64,000 nucleotides of DNA from Sordariomycetes sp. S80-01Y (taxonomy: Eukaryota > Ascomycota > Sordariomycetes), in the NCBI GenBank assembly GCA_037042185.1, contig JAXQJY010000029.1, forward strand, positions 1,798,001 to 1,862,000, read 5' to 3'. Positions 49,609-57,877 of the stretch are shown here, in pieces (within the stretch, counting starts at the first letter, position 1; each line of letters opens with the position of its first letter). The notes beneath the pieces were generated by a model, which was not told where the DNA came from, did no database searches, and saw only the letters and a program-made list of their open reading frames with translations. The position numbers and the translations under genes were made by a program.

Positions 49609-52221
49609 ATGCCTAGCTCTTCGGAAGGCTCAAACGCCGGCCCTGCGCACTCCAATCACGCCGCCGAACCTTCATCCGCCTCCGCGCCGCCGCCCGTCCC
49701 CGACAATGCCTCCGTCCCCAAGCCCAAGCGACTGGCCTGCATGATATGTCGCAAACGGAAGCTCAAGTGCGATGGCGTCCGGCCGAGCTGCAGTACCTGT
49801 TCGAGACTGGGTCATACCTGCGCTTACGATGAGCAGAGGAGGAAGAGCGGGCCCAAGCGCGGATACGTCAAGGCGCTGGAGGAGAGGTTGAAGCAGGTCG
49901 AGACCATGTTGAAGACGCAGGATCAGAGCCCGGCGAACGCAAGCCCTACGAACCAGGGTGCAGGCGGCCTGCCGATGACCTCGGCGCAGGGAGCTGCGAA
50001 TCTGCCTCCCGCTCTGGGCATCGGCAACGATTGGGGCGGCATGGACACGAGGAACGACTCGCCAAATCAAGCTGGTCCGATGGACGACTTTAACTTTGAC
50101 GCAAGCATGAGCATGGGCATGAACAATGCCGGAGGGGATTTCACGTGGGAGATGATTGGGCTCGGGCTGGAGGAGCCGCTGCCACCACAGGAGACCATCG
50201 ACGAGCTACACCAGGTTTACTTTGAGAAGGTCCACCCCTCGATACCGATGATTCACAAGTATCGTTACTTGGCGGCCATGAACTTGGCCCCAAGCCAACG
50301 GCCTCCTGTCTGCTTGAGGTATGCCATGTGGACGATGGCCTGCTCGATCACGGACAAGTACACCGACATGAAGGACCTGTTCTATCAACGCGCACGCAAA
50401 TATGTCGAAGCAGACTACATCAAGGGCTACGGAGAGCACATGATTTCGGTGGCTCACTGTCAGACGCACATCCTCCTATCTAGCTACGAGATGAAGATGA
50501 TGTACTTCCCTCGAGCATGGATCAACACTGGCTCAGCGGTTCGACTGGCACAGATGATTGGTCTGCACCGCCTCGACGGCTCGGGCTTGGACGTCAAGCA
50601 GTGTCTTCCACCGCCAAAGGATTGGACCGAGCGTGAAGAGCGACGGCGGACGTTCTGGATGGCCTTCTGCGAGGACCGATACGCGAGCATAGGCACTGGC
50701 TGGCCCATGACGGTTGATGAGAGGGACGTCATGACGAATCTCCCGGCGTCGGAGGAAGCGTTTGATATGAGCCGGCCTGAGCAGACGCCAAGTTTACAGG
50801 ACGCCACGCGCCCTTCGGGCGCTTCGAAGCTGTCCTCCTTCGGCGCCATCGTCTTGATGGCTTCCCTTTACGGACGCAACCTCGTTCATCTACACCGGCC
50901 GGATGGCGATGATCAGGATAACGACCTAAACGGTCCCTTCTGGAAACGACATCGGACCATGGATAACATCATCTTGAACACATCGCTCTGTCTTCCCCAG
51001 CACTTGAAGCTACCCGCCGGGATAGCCAATCCCAACGTCGTGTTCACAAATATGAGCATACACACATCGACAATCTGTCTGCACCAGGCCGCCATTTTCA
51101 AAGCGGAGAAGAACAAGCTGCCTGCTTCAGTTGGGGCGGAGAGTAAAGTACGGTGCATTACGGCGGCAAACGAAATTGCCAGCATGATGAGGACCATTTC
51201 TCACATGGACCTCTCAGCGGTAAGTACTCGCAGTCAGCTGGCGACGAGCAATACTGATTGACTGCAGATGAACCCCTTTATCTCGTTCTGCCTCTACGTG
51301 TCCGCCCGCGTCTTTGTACAGTACCTCAAGAGTCGACCAGACGACAGCCAGACCGCCGACTCCTTGCGCTTCCTTCTCTCGGCCATGAATGCCCTCAAAA
51401 GGCGCAACCCTCTCACGGAGTCGTTCCTCGTCCAGCTGGACGTCGACCTCGAGTCTCTGTCGTTGAGGATCCCGAAGTTGCGGAATGAGTTCATGCGCAT
51501 GGGTGATGGAGACAACAATCCGATGAACTCGGCAGGCGACGGCCCGAAAGCGCCATGTGGCAACCCCAAAGGAGTTCAGGGCATCATGGCCTACCGGGAC
51601 CAAAGCTACTACACGGGTCCTCAAGGTGACGAGGGAAACGCGCTCAATGGCCCGAGCCTCGACACCACGAACTCGACTGGGTTTAACTCGCAGTCGTGGC
51701 TATCTGCTGAGCAGTCAATGTCCGGCCTAACGCCAAGTTCAGGCGGGGGAGGGCTGTTCGAAAAAGGCGGGACAGGCAGCAACCAGCAAGGGACGAATGG
51801 CTCACCAGTCGAGGGCCAATCCAGCGGACCTACACCGAACTCCAGCTCGGACACTAGGAACCAACATCTAGCCCCCGGGCAGGCAAATAACTCAGACCGC
51901 AACTCCTTCAACGCCAGCCCCATCTCTCCGCAGCAAAACCTCATGGGCGCGAATGAGCTTGGCAACACCAGCACGGCAAACTTCTTCAGCGAGCCGGGTG
52001 ACTTCTCGGGGCAACCACAGCAGCAGCAACAGCAGCAGCAAAATGCTTTCAGCATGGCGCCGAACGGCTGGGGTGACATGGCCACTCAACAAAACCAGGT
52101 GCCGCAGCAGCAGCAACAACAGCTAGGCGACGGTGTGTTACGAGCGTTGATGAATATGGGCCCCATGGATGCGATGGATCTTTCGAGCTGGGACCAGGGC
52201 AACGAAAACTTGCGTCAATGA
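49609..52221 (+). CDS. Zn2Cys6 fungal-specific transcription factor
   Basis: Two exons (49609-51219, 51268-52221) give 854 residues. The Zn2Cys6 cluster has C44, C47, C54, C61, C64 and C71 (ACMICRKRKLKCDG). It is followed by the linker RKSGPKRGYVKALEERLKQV, which starts a short dimerising coiled coil. A fungal-specific (middle homology) domain spans about 200-560, with FFVKVHP-like VYFEKVHPSIPMIHKYR and REERRRTFWMAFCEDRYASI. The C-terminus is disordered, with Asn/Ser-rich sequence and two glutamine tracts (encoded at about 52016-52042 and 52105-52122), a likely activation region. It binds DNA in the nucleus; the target pathway cannot be told. Confidence 0.92.
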
Positions 52222-52688: not shown

Positions 52689-54571
52689 ATGGCTGCTCCA
52701 GACTTCGGCCATGGCGGCGCGGACTTGGCTGGCGCGGGCGCGTATCGCATGTCCATGGATCATCTTGGGCTGGACGCGTACAGCCCGGCCATGACCACGG
52801 GGTACCATCCTCATCACCACCAACATCCCCATTCTCATCCTCACCCTCACCCACACCCACACGTACACGCTCATGCGCATCAACACCAGCATCAACACCA
52901 GCATCAGCCACTTCCTCAGCCGTTTCCAAGGGTCCCCTCGCAGGCTAGACCGCAGCCGCAACAGCAGCAACACTCCGGTGGAGGACAGTTTGGAATTCTT
53001 GCGCCCACCAATGTCCCGCAGGATGCCTTTGGTAACGAGATCCCGACCACGTTGGACAGCACGTCGGCCATTGCTGGTCCGTCAGCAGACCCTGGGACCG
53101 CTGCGCATGGGCAGCTGAGCACCAAGATCGTCTTCGACCCGCCCGACCTTGCGACCTGGCGCGACAAGCTCTTCAACGTGGACGAGCTTATCATTCTCAC
53201 CGATGAGCAGTTCCAGACCTACTTCCCTCACATTGACAATGTCTACTCCCACCGCTCCACCCAGCGCTACAAGCGCAAGCCATTCGTGTCGCACTACTGG
53301 GACTGCAGGATGAAGGGCCGTCCCTCTGGCACTCCCAAAAGCGAGGACCCGAACAAGAAGAAGCGGAAGCGCAATGCGCGGGAGCGCGACCTTTGCGACG
53401 TCAAGATCAAGATCACAGAGTACTCCCCCGGCGCGCAGATCCAGATCGAGGATGGGATGGGGAGCTTCAGCGCCCAGCAGACCATCAGCGTGCCGGACAT
53501 GGTTGGTCCCGGCCAGAAGTTCTGGACGATTCAGAGGGTCAATGGTAACGGCGGCAACGGGAAGGGCGACGGCGTCGCGGGGCCGCATCGGCACACGCTG
53601 GCAAAGAGCGATGAGATCAAGAAGAACAGCGTGCAGAGACAGCTGGCGAAGCTCGAGAAGGAGACAAAGTCGACGCAGGTACGTTACTCTCGGACAGCAT
53701 GGCGATACGCTTGCTGACATGATTAGAAACCCCTGACGCGAAGAGCAACGGGTGCCGCGGCCGCTACGATCAAGAAGCACAGCAAAGCCGCGGACATAGT
53801 ACTCTACGCAACACCCTGGTGCCCCTTTTCCCAAAGGGTCTGGATCGCACTCGAAGCCCTCGGCCTCTCGTATCAGTTCTCGAACTGTGGCGAACCCAAG
53901 AAGCCAACCAAGTTCCTTGAGATTACCAAGTCGGGCGCTACACCGGTTCTGAGACATGGGGACTTTCACTGCAGAGACAGCACGGTACTTGTTGAATACG
54001 TGAGTGGCAGCCAGGACTATTTCAATGGGGCGATGCTAATCGGTCCCTAAGCTGGAGGACTTGAGCACCAGCAAAGGACTGCTCCCTGCCAACGCACAGC
54101 TCAAGGCGAAATGCCGGCTTTGGATGAAGCATGTAAGCTGCTCTTGTGCCAATCGCAAATGGCCTAGCTGACGAGGTCTAGATCGAAAGGAAGATTGTGC
54201 CAACCTTCTACGACATGCTCAAAGCCCATCAGATCGAAGATATGGCTGCCCGTTCCCAGGCTGCGGACCGCCTGCGGCTCGATCTTTACGCGATCGCAAA
54301 TCACGCAGATGAGGAAGGGCCCTTCTTTGTTGGGACTAGTTTGAGTCTCGTTGACATTCTCCTTGCGCCATTCGCCCTTCGGCTGCCTCGCATTCTGGAA
54401 CCCTTGTGTGGCTGGACCTTCTCTCACGAAGGTTCCCGGTGGTCGCGCTGGGTCGAGGCTCTGGAGAATGACGCCCACGTCAAGGCGACTTTGAGCGAGG
54501 ATGAGCTTTACCTCAATTGCGTGTCGAGTATGCTCTGCCTCGAGAACTTGCCTGAGTCCATCACCACCTGA
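52689..54571 (+). CDS. Fusion of a WRKY-GCM1-like domain with an omega-type glutathione transferase
   Basis: Four exons (52689-53678, 53727-53999, 54052-54132, 54182-54571), all joined in phase 0, give 577 residues. Residues 40-73 are a His/Gln tract. Residues about 145-320 form a conserved-looking domain. C206 (HYWDCRMKGRP), C236 (DLCDVKIKITEY) and H300/H302 (FWTIQRVNG, then GPHRHTL) follow the C-C-HxH plan of WRKY-GCM1/FAR1 zinc domains. A basic KKKRKR lies between the cysteines. From residue 350 an omega-class GST begins: DIVLYATPWCPFSQRVWIAL with catalytic-type C362, then FLEITKSGATPVLRH (cis-Pro). A helical C-terminal domain follows. Dehydroascorbate reductase or thioltransferase activity is known for omega GSTs. 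The DNA-binding role of the head is inferred. Confidence 0.75.
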
Positions 54572-54779: not shown

Positions 54780-56021
54780 ATGAAGGTCATCCTCGCCATC
54801 AACGCGGGCTCCAGCTCTGTCAAGATCTCCGTCTATACCGCTGATTCACTGAACGCAACGCCCAACCAGGTTGCAGACGCACAGGTCTCTGGCTTGACGG
54901 CACCTCCCGCGAAGCTCACTTACACCCGTGGATCGACGTCCGTCCACAAGAACAAGGAGGTCGAGGCGAACAGTCAAGATGCTGCCTTCAGCTTGCTGCT
55001 GGACACGCTGGTCGGCGACGACGCCCTGAAGGAAATCGCCCACAAGGACGACATCGCCATCGCCTGCCACCGCATCGTCCACGGCGGCGACTACGACGAT
55101 GCCCAGATCATCACCAAGGACACCTACCACCACATCGAAGCCCTCAGCGACCTTGCCCCCCTTCACAACGGCGCAGCGCTCGGCATCGTCGATAGTTGCA
55201 TCAAGCAGCTCCCCTCCACGAGGAACGTCGCCTGCTTCGATTCCCAATTTCACGCTTCCATCCCGCCGCACATCTCGACGTACCCCATCAACCAGGACGT
55301 GGCCAGGAAGAACAAGCTCCGCAAGTACGGCTTCCACGGTATAAGCTACGCCTTCATCGCGCGCTCCGTCGCCGAGCACCTAGGCAAGCCGGTCGATAAG
55401 CTTAACATCATCGCCCTCCACCTAGGCAGCGGAGCCAGCGCCTGCGCCATCAAGAATGGCAAAAGCTGGGACACGAGCATGGGGTTGACGCCGCTCGCCG
55501 GGCTCCCAGGCGCTACGAGGAGCGGGAGCGTCGACCCGAGCCTCGTCTTCCACTACGCCAGCGACGTGGGCAAGCTCAGCCCCGCGTCCACCTCCCAGCT
55601 GCACATCTCCAAGGCCGAGGAGATCCTCAACAAGCAGTCCGGCTGGTCCGCGCTGACGGGCACCACCGACTTCGGCGCCATCGCAGCGCGGGACACGCCC
55701 GAGCGCAGGCTGGCCTTTGACATCCTCGTCGACCGCATCTCGGGCTTCGTGGGGAGCTACTTCGTCAGCCTCGAGGGCGACGTGGACGCGCTGGTGTTCG
55801 CGGGCGGCATCGGGGAGAAGAGCGCCGATCTGAGGAGGGAGGTTGTGCGCAAGGTGAGGTGCCTCGGCTTCGGGATCGACGAGAGCAAGAACGGCGGTGG
55901 GCTGAGCGGGGTGGTGGGGGATGTTGGGGACGGCAAGGGACACGGGGTCCTGGTCTGTCAGACGGATGAGCAGTTCGAGATGGCGAGGACCTGTACGACC
56001 AAGCAGGATCTATGGTCGTGA
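54780..56021 (+). CDS. ackA: Acetate kinase
   Basis: A single exon encodes 413 residues, close to the bacterial length of about 400. Family signatures are all present: MKVILAINAGSSSVKISVY (first ATPase-fold motif), HRIVHGGDY, ACFDSQFHASIPPHISTYPI (catalytic Asp and substrate His), RKYGFHGISYAFIAR, IALHLGSGASACAIKNGKSW, DTSMGLTPLAGLPGATRSGS and VFAGGIGEKSADLRREV. It converts acetyl phosphate and ADP to acetate and ATP, or the reverse. In fungi it works with phosphoketolase (Xfp) to recover energy or acetyl units from pentose phosphates. No Xfp gene is in the window. The tail EQFEMARTCTTKQDLWS matches the family end. Confidence 0.95.
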   Translation: MKVILAINAGSSSVKISVYTADSLNATPNQVADAQVSGLTAPPAKLTYTRGSTSVHKNKEVEANSQDAAFSLLLDTLVGDDALKEIAHKDDIAIACHRIVHGGDYDDAQIITKDTYHHIEALSDLAPLHNGAALGIVDSCIKQLPSTRNVACFDSQFHASIPPHISTYPINQDVARKNKLRKYGFHGISYAFIARSVAEHLGKPVDKLNIIALHLGSGASACAIKNGKSWDTSMGLTPLAGLPGATRSGSVDPSLVFHYASDVGKLSPASTSQLHISKAEEILNKQSGWSALTGTTDFGAIAARDTPERRLAFDILVDRISGFVGSYFVSLEGDVDALVFAGGIGEKSADLRREVVRKVRCLGFGIDESKNGGGLSGVVGDVGDGKGHGVLVCQTDEQFEMARTCTTKQDLWS

Positions 56022-56932: not shown

Positions 56933-57877
56933 TCATTTGGCGTCCTCGCCCTCCTGCGCGGCGATAGCCATGGCCAGGGCGTCGAGGCCGCTGCTTGGCG
57001 TCCTGGAGGGCAGGGGGCGATTGAGGAGGGGTAGGTTCAAGCCGCGCATGTCCCAGGTGCCTCCGCTGGATGATACGGGAGGCGTCGGCAGAGGGTACTG
57101 CAGGTGCTGCTGTTCCTTCTCCCAGGGCGAAGTGACTTGCGAGTTCGATTCGCGGGCGATGGAGCGGCTGCGTCCAGAGACCGAGTTGCGGCGGGCCCCG
57201 GCCAGGGCAGCCTTGTGAGCGCGCTGGCCGTTGGCGGCGCGGCTCTTGTCCTTGTAGTGAGTCTCGAGGTGCTGCTTCATGTTGTCGGCGCGAGTGAACT
57301 TCTTCTGGCATCCAGGATAGGTGCACTGGACGGCCTTCTCGGCTGTGTGGATCTTGGAGTGGCGCGACGCGTGACCCGACGTGGTGAAAGTCTTTTCGCA
57401 GCCGTGACTGTCGCGATACCGGCAGGGGTAGCGCTTGCCTGACCGCTCGGGCAGGGGCGCTGGGATGGCGAGGTCGTCCTCGGCGAAGGAAGCGGTGCGG
57501 CCGTCTGAGTAGGCCGGTCGCTTGGCAGCAGGTGCGGCCACGTCCATGGCGTAGTCCTGGTTGATGGGGTAGAGAGAAGAGCGACCGAAGGCGTAGGTTC
57601 CAGAAGGCGTCATGGGCGACAGAGGGTCGTTGCTGCTGCTGGTTTGGGAGTCGTAAGAGTCAGAGCGAAGCAGCTCGGGCATGTTCGGTGAGGATGAGTT
57701 ACTGCGGCTGGCGGGGCTGGGACGGGGCAGAACATGGCTGCTGTGGTAGCTTAAGGGACGCTGGGGAAGAGGTCGCTGCGCCTTGAGGCCGGTTTGCGAC
57801 GTCGGATTCCTGTCGGAGGGGCCGTCATTGAGCAGCGAGACCTGGCGGCCTGTTGCGTCGCGGGCGTTCATCATCAT
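56933..57877 (-). CDS. flbC: C2H2 zinc-finger regulator, FlbC-like
   Basis: A single exon encodes 314 residues from the first of three consecutive ATG codons (57877). A disordered Ser/Pro-rich region of about 145 residues precedes two C2H2 fingers. Finger 1 (about 152-177) starts CRYRDSHGCEKTFTTSGH, and finger 2 (about 185-207) reads CTYPGCQKKFTRADNMKQH. A basic stretch follows. The pair resembles FlbC of Aspergillus, a regulator that promotes conidiation, but other fungal two-finger regulators are similar and the symbol is provisional. The Ser/Pro-rich head may be an activation region. Expression is expected to be developmental, in line with the long upstream sequence. Confidence 0.8.
   Translation of the reverse strand: MMMNARDATGRQVSLLNDGPSDRNPTSQTGLKAQRPLPQRPLSYHSSHVLPRPSPASRSNSSSPNMPELLRSDSYDSQTSSSNDPLSPMTPSGTYAFGRSSLYPINQDYAMDVAAPAAKRPAYSDGRTASFAEDDLAIPAPLPERSGKRYPCRYRDSHGCEKTFTTSGHASRHSKIHTAEKAVQCTYPGCQKKFTRADNMKQHLETHYKDKSRAANGQRAHKAALAGARRNSVSGRSRSIARESNSQVTSPWEKEQQHLQYPLPTPPVSSSGGTWDMRGLNLPLLNRPLPSRTPSSGLDALAMAIAAQEGEDAK

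Follow-up and report, generated by a model that had tools for sequence, protein, structure and literature searches.

A candidate fusion of an unclassified Cys/His domain with an omega-like glutathione transferase in a sordariomycete fungus

The glutathione transferase fold is used in gene regulation by Ure2 and SspA, and in yeast the regulators Aft1 and Aft2 are governed by monothiol glutaredoxins, which are separate proteins. Omega transferases are credited in PMC4470081 with glutathione-dependent thioltransferase activity instead of conventional conjugation. The 20 transferases attributed to Talaromyces marneffei in the body of PMC10449922 range there from 164 to 406 residues, none being as long as the 577-residue protein considered here. 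A fungal fusion of a transferase with a DNA-binding domain is named in none of the titles or abstract openings among the literature matches listed, and such a fusion goes unmentioned in the main-text portions of PMC4401685 and PMC4470081; in the corresponding portions of PMC4817252 and PMC4354306, the term WRKY-GCM1 appears in the reference lists only.

The locus described here lies in a 64,000-nucleotide window, the whole stretch of DNA that was analysed, from Sordariomycetes sp. S80-01Y. Its predicted product places a His-rich head and a basic, Cys- and His-containing domain in front of an omega-like transferase. The reading favoured here, tentatively and with a probability of about 0.4, is that of a nuclear regulator that would be dimerised by its transferase half and would respond to glutathione.

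Gene model and the join between the halves

Four plus-strand exons of 990, 273, 81 and 390 bases, separated by three short GT..AG introns that each fall in phase 0, yield after splicing a 577-residue frame whose protein end lies at 54571 (Table 1). Translation verified the coordinates, the phase-0 junctions and the frame, in agreement with the four exons in one phase reported by the initial annotation. At their 5' ends the introns read GTACGT, GTGAGT and GTAAGC, and GCTGAC or GCTAAT stands 8-11 bases before the 3' end, as is expected of small ascomycete introns; this intron style and the gene content both point to a filamentous ascomycete. Taken alone this signal is weak, because equally loose matches are common by chance: across the window the loose consensus is found 18 times on the plus strand and 11 times on the minus strand, where 20 mononucleotide shuffles average 11.35.

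Table 1. Coordinates of the features of the fusion gene, numbered within the window
Feature	Coordinates	Strand	Detail	Basis
Exon 1	52689..53678	+	residues 1-144, head rich in His, Gln and Pro; about 145-330, basic Cys/His domain, unclassified	open frame, splice
His-rich tract	52806..52904	+	residues 40-72, 18 His of 33	
Cys206 codon	53304..53306	+	first proposed zinc ligand	coordinates by arithmetic
KKKRKR	53355..53372	+	residues 223-228, possible nuclear localisation signal, within C206-C236 loop	coordinates by arithmetic
Cys236 codon	53394..53396	+	second proposed ligand	coordinates by arithmetic
His300-Arg-His302 codons	53586..53594	+	proposed HxH ligands	coordinates by arithmetic
Intron 1	53679..53726	+	48 nt, phase 0, junction between halves	GTACGT...GCTGAC-N8-TAG
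Exon 2	53727..53999	+	transferase start, thioredoxin-fold half with WCPFSQRV (Cys362)	
Intron 2	54000..54051	+	52 nt, phase 0	
Exon 3	54052..54132	+		
Intron 3	54133..54181	+	49 nt, phase 0	
Exon 4	54182..54571	+	most of transferase helical half and stop codon	

A better argument for the join than the intron signal is that the transferase cannot be started by itself. A TAG immediately 5' of exon 2 (53727) closes its frame, and the first methionine that its exons encode comes at residue 116 of their 248 (stop counted), downstream of the WCPF at 31, so that these exons are not readable alone and need an upstream exon. This bears directly on the alternative that two genes have been read as one, the first ending within the supposed intron and the second being a transferase with an unseen start. 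Such an arrangement would agree with the 12 codons through which unspliced exon 1 continues to a stop, with the existence of a stand-alone paralogue elsewhere in the genome and with the frequency of intron-like signals by chance; the closed frame and the missing methionine before the active site would nonetheless call for an upstream exon anyway, although an internal promoter might allow translation to begin within exon 1. On balance, two separate genes appear very improbable.

The exact position of the junction is one choice among 11, because that number of GT..AG pairs, 40-150 nt apart, allow uninterrupted reading from exon 1 into the transferase frame; every one of them yields the fusion. 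Codon usage gives the join no support: in a crude test trained on two neighbouring genes, the annotated frame ranked first in two of five segments (the exon-1 domain and exon 2) and lost in the head, exon 3 and exon 4. At the level of sequence, the splice frame and the lack of a separate transferase start support the join that had been proposed, and a single protein containing head and transferase is credible. Intron 1 may mark the point at which two once separate genes fused, which would match a transferase that is complete downstream of this intron, as the TGAAA...H head that it shares with the paralogue starts a few residues past the junction and the alignment with the solved chain 6srb sets in at that head too.

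The gene has plus-strand neighbours on both sides. Upstream, at 49609-52221, lies a Zn2Cys6 regulator that also carries a Fungal_trans domain, apparently of at least two exons; at E <= 0.001, Pfam finds nothing in its second open stretch, 51262-52218. Downstream, an acetate kinase (54780-56018; Pfam E 6.9e-97) starts 208 bases past the stop of the fusion gene. On the minus strand, an open frame at 56936-57874 has one C2H2 zinc-finger match (4.5e-06), and a 317-residue stop-to-stop frame at 53082-54035, antisense to exons 1 and 2, is probably a chance feature of coding DNA.

The transferase half

The C-terminal part of the protein, from about residue 336, matches Pfam GST_N_3 (E 8.2e-17, 61.8 bits, cut-off 22) and GST_N_2 (E 7.8e-14, 52.5 bits, cut-off 25). 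The helical half scores just below the cut-off of GST_C_2 (23.9 bits vs 24.9), and the alignments with 6srb and human GSTO1 extend through it. Among solved relatives (the best 60 of 80 distinct sequences at E <= 0.001), 6srb_A ranks at the top with 4.3e-34 and human GSTO1 entries come next, near 1e-14. The motif WCPFSQRV occupies residues 361-368, with Cys362 aligned to Cys32 of the GSTO1 CPF. At the positions equivalent to six residues of the GSTO1 glutathione site, four residues are identical (C362, K389, P403 and S415) and two are changed, Val to T402 and Glu to D414. The omega-type assignment first made from the WCPFSQRV site is thus upheld by the GST_N_3 match, the 6srb and GSTO1 alignments and the retained Cys362, and the identification of this half as an omega-like cysteine glutathione transferase is supported. 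The NCBIfam SspA model was also considered, and SspA identity was rejected at 52.6 bits vs an equivalog cut-off of 314.

The same genome holds at least 19 matches to GST_N_2. Closest to exon 2 among the own-genome matches listed is L001, the stand-alone paralogue mentioned above, a 295-residue frame on contig 13 that aligns with the transferase half from the TGAAA head, 83 of 240 columns (35%) being identical, and whose own closest solved relative is 6srb. Relatives of exon 2 were found neither among 77 stretches of the viral_contigs collection nor among 575 stretches of genome_contigs; with the plasmid set, these collections comprise prokaryotes, viral contigs and plasmids, and the lack of a relative in them therefore says little about fungi.

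It is conceivable that the gene encodes an ordinary omega-like transferase whose long accessory head merely targets or tethers the enzyme, without any role in gene regulation. This explanation accommodates a protein in which the transferase half alone is recognisable, the active-site cysteine is kept and the head is unclassified. The accessory part, 330 residues long and basic in the stretch that separates its two cysteines, is larger than a short targeting tail would require, which is a weak argument against it, and a tethered enzyme is considered unlikely.

The head half and the WRKY-GCM1 question

His, Gln and Pro are abundant in residues 1-144, and the density of histidine in residues 40-72 (Table 1) bears out the His-rich head noted earlier. 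Region 200-306 contains 19 Lys or Arg vs 11 Asp or Glu, including the KKKRKR run, a possible nuclear signal, though basic runs are common and are not proof of nuclear import. When the head domain was scanned whole and in five pieces against Pfam and NCBIfam, only chance-level matches were returned. Exon 1 gave six matches to PDB sequences, none meaningful (best E 0.05), five of which fall within low-complexity residues 62-113, the other being 1w9s at 225-281 (E 1.3). A search of the same genome at E <= 10 found no second copy of the head domain, its sole match being itself. No relative was confirmed in genome_contigs (45 pattern stretches) or viral_contigs (6 stretches), and the plasmids gave one chance match (E 2). 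Residues of about 145-330 are best described as a basic domain of no recognised family that is possibly zinc-binding.

The initial annotation had read this part of the protein as a WRKY-GCM1-like zinc domain, with its cysteines and histidines arranged as in that superfamily. As to the arrangement, the residues themselves (C206, C236, H300 and H302) and their order are present, whereas their spacing and the surrounding sequence do not conform. The C-C gap is 29, against 22, 25, 22 and 23 in four comparators of the same genome (L013, L014, L015 and L016, counted at aligned cysteines), and the C-H gap is 63, against 24, 25, 23 and 27. Of the 215 window frames with at least 100 aa, 16 contain the simple order C...C...H-x-H, as do 125 of 20000 shuffles. 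Three regular expressions of increasing strictness for C...C...W-x-I...H-x-H, written with the window sequence in view, were matched by 11, 1 and 0 of 20000 shuffles and each by one of the 215 window frames, namely this one.

As to identity, the Pfam scan, a FAR1 profile and blocks of free spacing were all negative despite positive controls. The head domain has no Pfam match to FAR1, AFT, WRKY or FLYWCH. A FAR1 search of the same genome found L013, L014 and L015, of which one exceeded the cut-off; in a direct scan, the positive control for the Pfam scan, all of them match Pfam FAR1 and, weakly, AFT. A profile (A1) built from the alignment of these three FAR1-type domains detected yeast AFT2 (4lmg, E 1.8e-4) and the N-terminal domain of the Mutator-like transposase L016 (E 3.2e-16, small set), but gave the window domain 0.1 bits, a score equalled by 703 of 2000 shuffles. 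An hhalign comparison with the FAR1-type domains, run without a positive control, returned a probability of 0.3 percent. In a further test, four short blocks were scored with free spacing to allow for possible long inserts in the window domain: four known members, each left out in turn, scored 58-77, and the window domain scored 7.7, which 1097 of 3000 shuffles equalled. The distant member AFT2 reached 22.2, with none of 3000 AFT2 shuffles as good; this only just exceeds the top score among 267 window-frame tiles (21.4) and falls short of the highest among 3000 window-domain shuffles (26.5), so that the block test has little power where members are very distant.

Searches of the same genome for the AFT and FLYWCH families found no match. 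In the AFT search no control rose above the cut-off, and the negative is uncertain given the weak AFT matches that direct scanning gives for the three FAR1-type domains; the FLYWCH search gave no control match either. Two single-sequence structure models have mean pLDDT values of 41.7 and 48.6, too poor for use in judging whether the domain has the four-stranded zinc-binding fold of the superfamily, and Foldseek with the second gave 44 matches at E <= 10, none of them at E <= 0.001. With this low confidence, each model predicts strands immediately ahead of C206, directly following C236 and across FWTIQRV, and a helix that spans 307-327.

WRKY-GCM1/FAR1 identity of the head domain is, on these comparisons, not supported. 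A very divergent WRKY-GCM1 transcription factor, binding zinc through C206, C236, H300 and H302 and governed by its own transferase half, would account for a residue order that is rare in shuffles once the W-x-I is included and would agree with the strands and helix that both weak models predict. The A1, hhalign and block scores, the gaps outside the ranges 22-25 and 23-27 and the poor quality of the models speak against such a factor, which is judged unlikely, slightly more so than a tethered enzyme; a fold that has drifted past sequence detection is still conceivable. In mechanism, this factor would be a special case of the nuclear regulator preferred here.

The FAR1-type sequences of this genome have features of their own. 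L016 is an 827-aa plus-strand frame encoding a Mutator-like transposase with an N-terminal FAR1-type domain, and the matches at L017 and L018 are broken by stops, that at L019 being under the cut-off. Two of the three FAR1-type proteins, L014 and L015, contain long Gln/His/Pro-rich stretches, and the profile of L013-L015 provides the link to yeast AFT2.

Possible function and comparison with known regulators

For a glutathione-responsive nuclear regulator, the transferase half would dimerise the protein and bind glutathione via Cys362, and the condition of the Cys362 site would change what the basic domain binds, be it DNA, chromatin or a protein partner. That the protein is nuclear, forms dimers, binds nucleic acid and is under redox control is what we infer; the steps with results behind them are the frame, the join at the sequence level, the identity of the transferase, the catalytic cysteine, the basic run and the finding of no second head-domain copy. 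The lack of a DNA-binding family match in the head domain, the two substitutions in the glutathione site and the GST_C_2 score below cut-off count against a regulator. A redox-sensing, DNA-binding regulator is possible. The fuller proposal, a fungal transcription regulator carrying its own glutathione-reading transferase, in which glutathione or thiol damage would switch, inside a single polypeptide, the ability of a new Cys/His domain to bind DNA, is unlikely.

The claim made here is limited to a variant, a transferase of known class preceded by an unclassified domain, on the basis of the titles and abstract openings listed and of one fungal genome, that of the gene itself. Provided that the fusion proves to be expressed and conserved, it would offer a single gene in which to ask whether a transferase fold acts as the built-in glutathione sensor of a nuclear protein, and its head domain would be one that Pfam does not recognise.

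Compared with omega-like transferases (6srb_A, human GSTO1, 3lfl and others), the protein is alike over nearly the whole transferase half and in its cysteine active site, and the ATG-x-AA head is shared with 6srb and the TGAAA head with L001. It differs in the Asp and Thr that replace the GSTO1-type Glu and Val, and in its length, since the listed solved transferase chains have about 240-261 residues, whereas here 330 residues precede the transferase exons. The FAR1-type proteins L013, L014 and L015 have the same order of Cys, Cys, Trp and His-x-His, but the gaps are longer here and no relation to the head domain is detectable by profile or blocks. Chains of SspA are among the solved relatives of the transferase half (best 60 of 80), and neither SspA nor Ure2 is known to have such an N-terminal Cys/His domain. 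With Aft1 and Aft2 the shared idea would be that of a regulator under a thioredoxin-fold thiol protein, the glutaredoxins being separate there and the transferase, as predicted, fused here.
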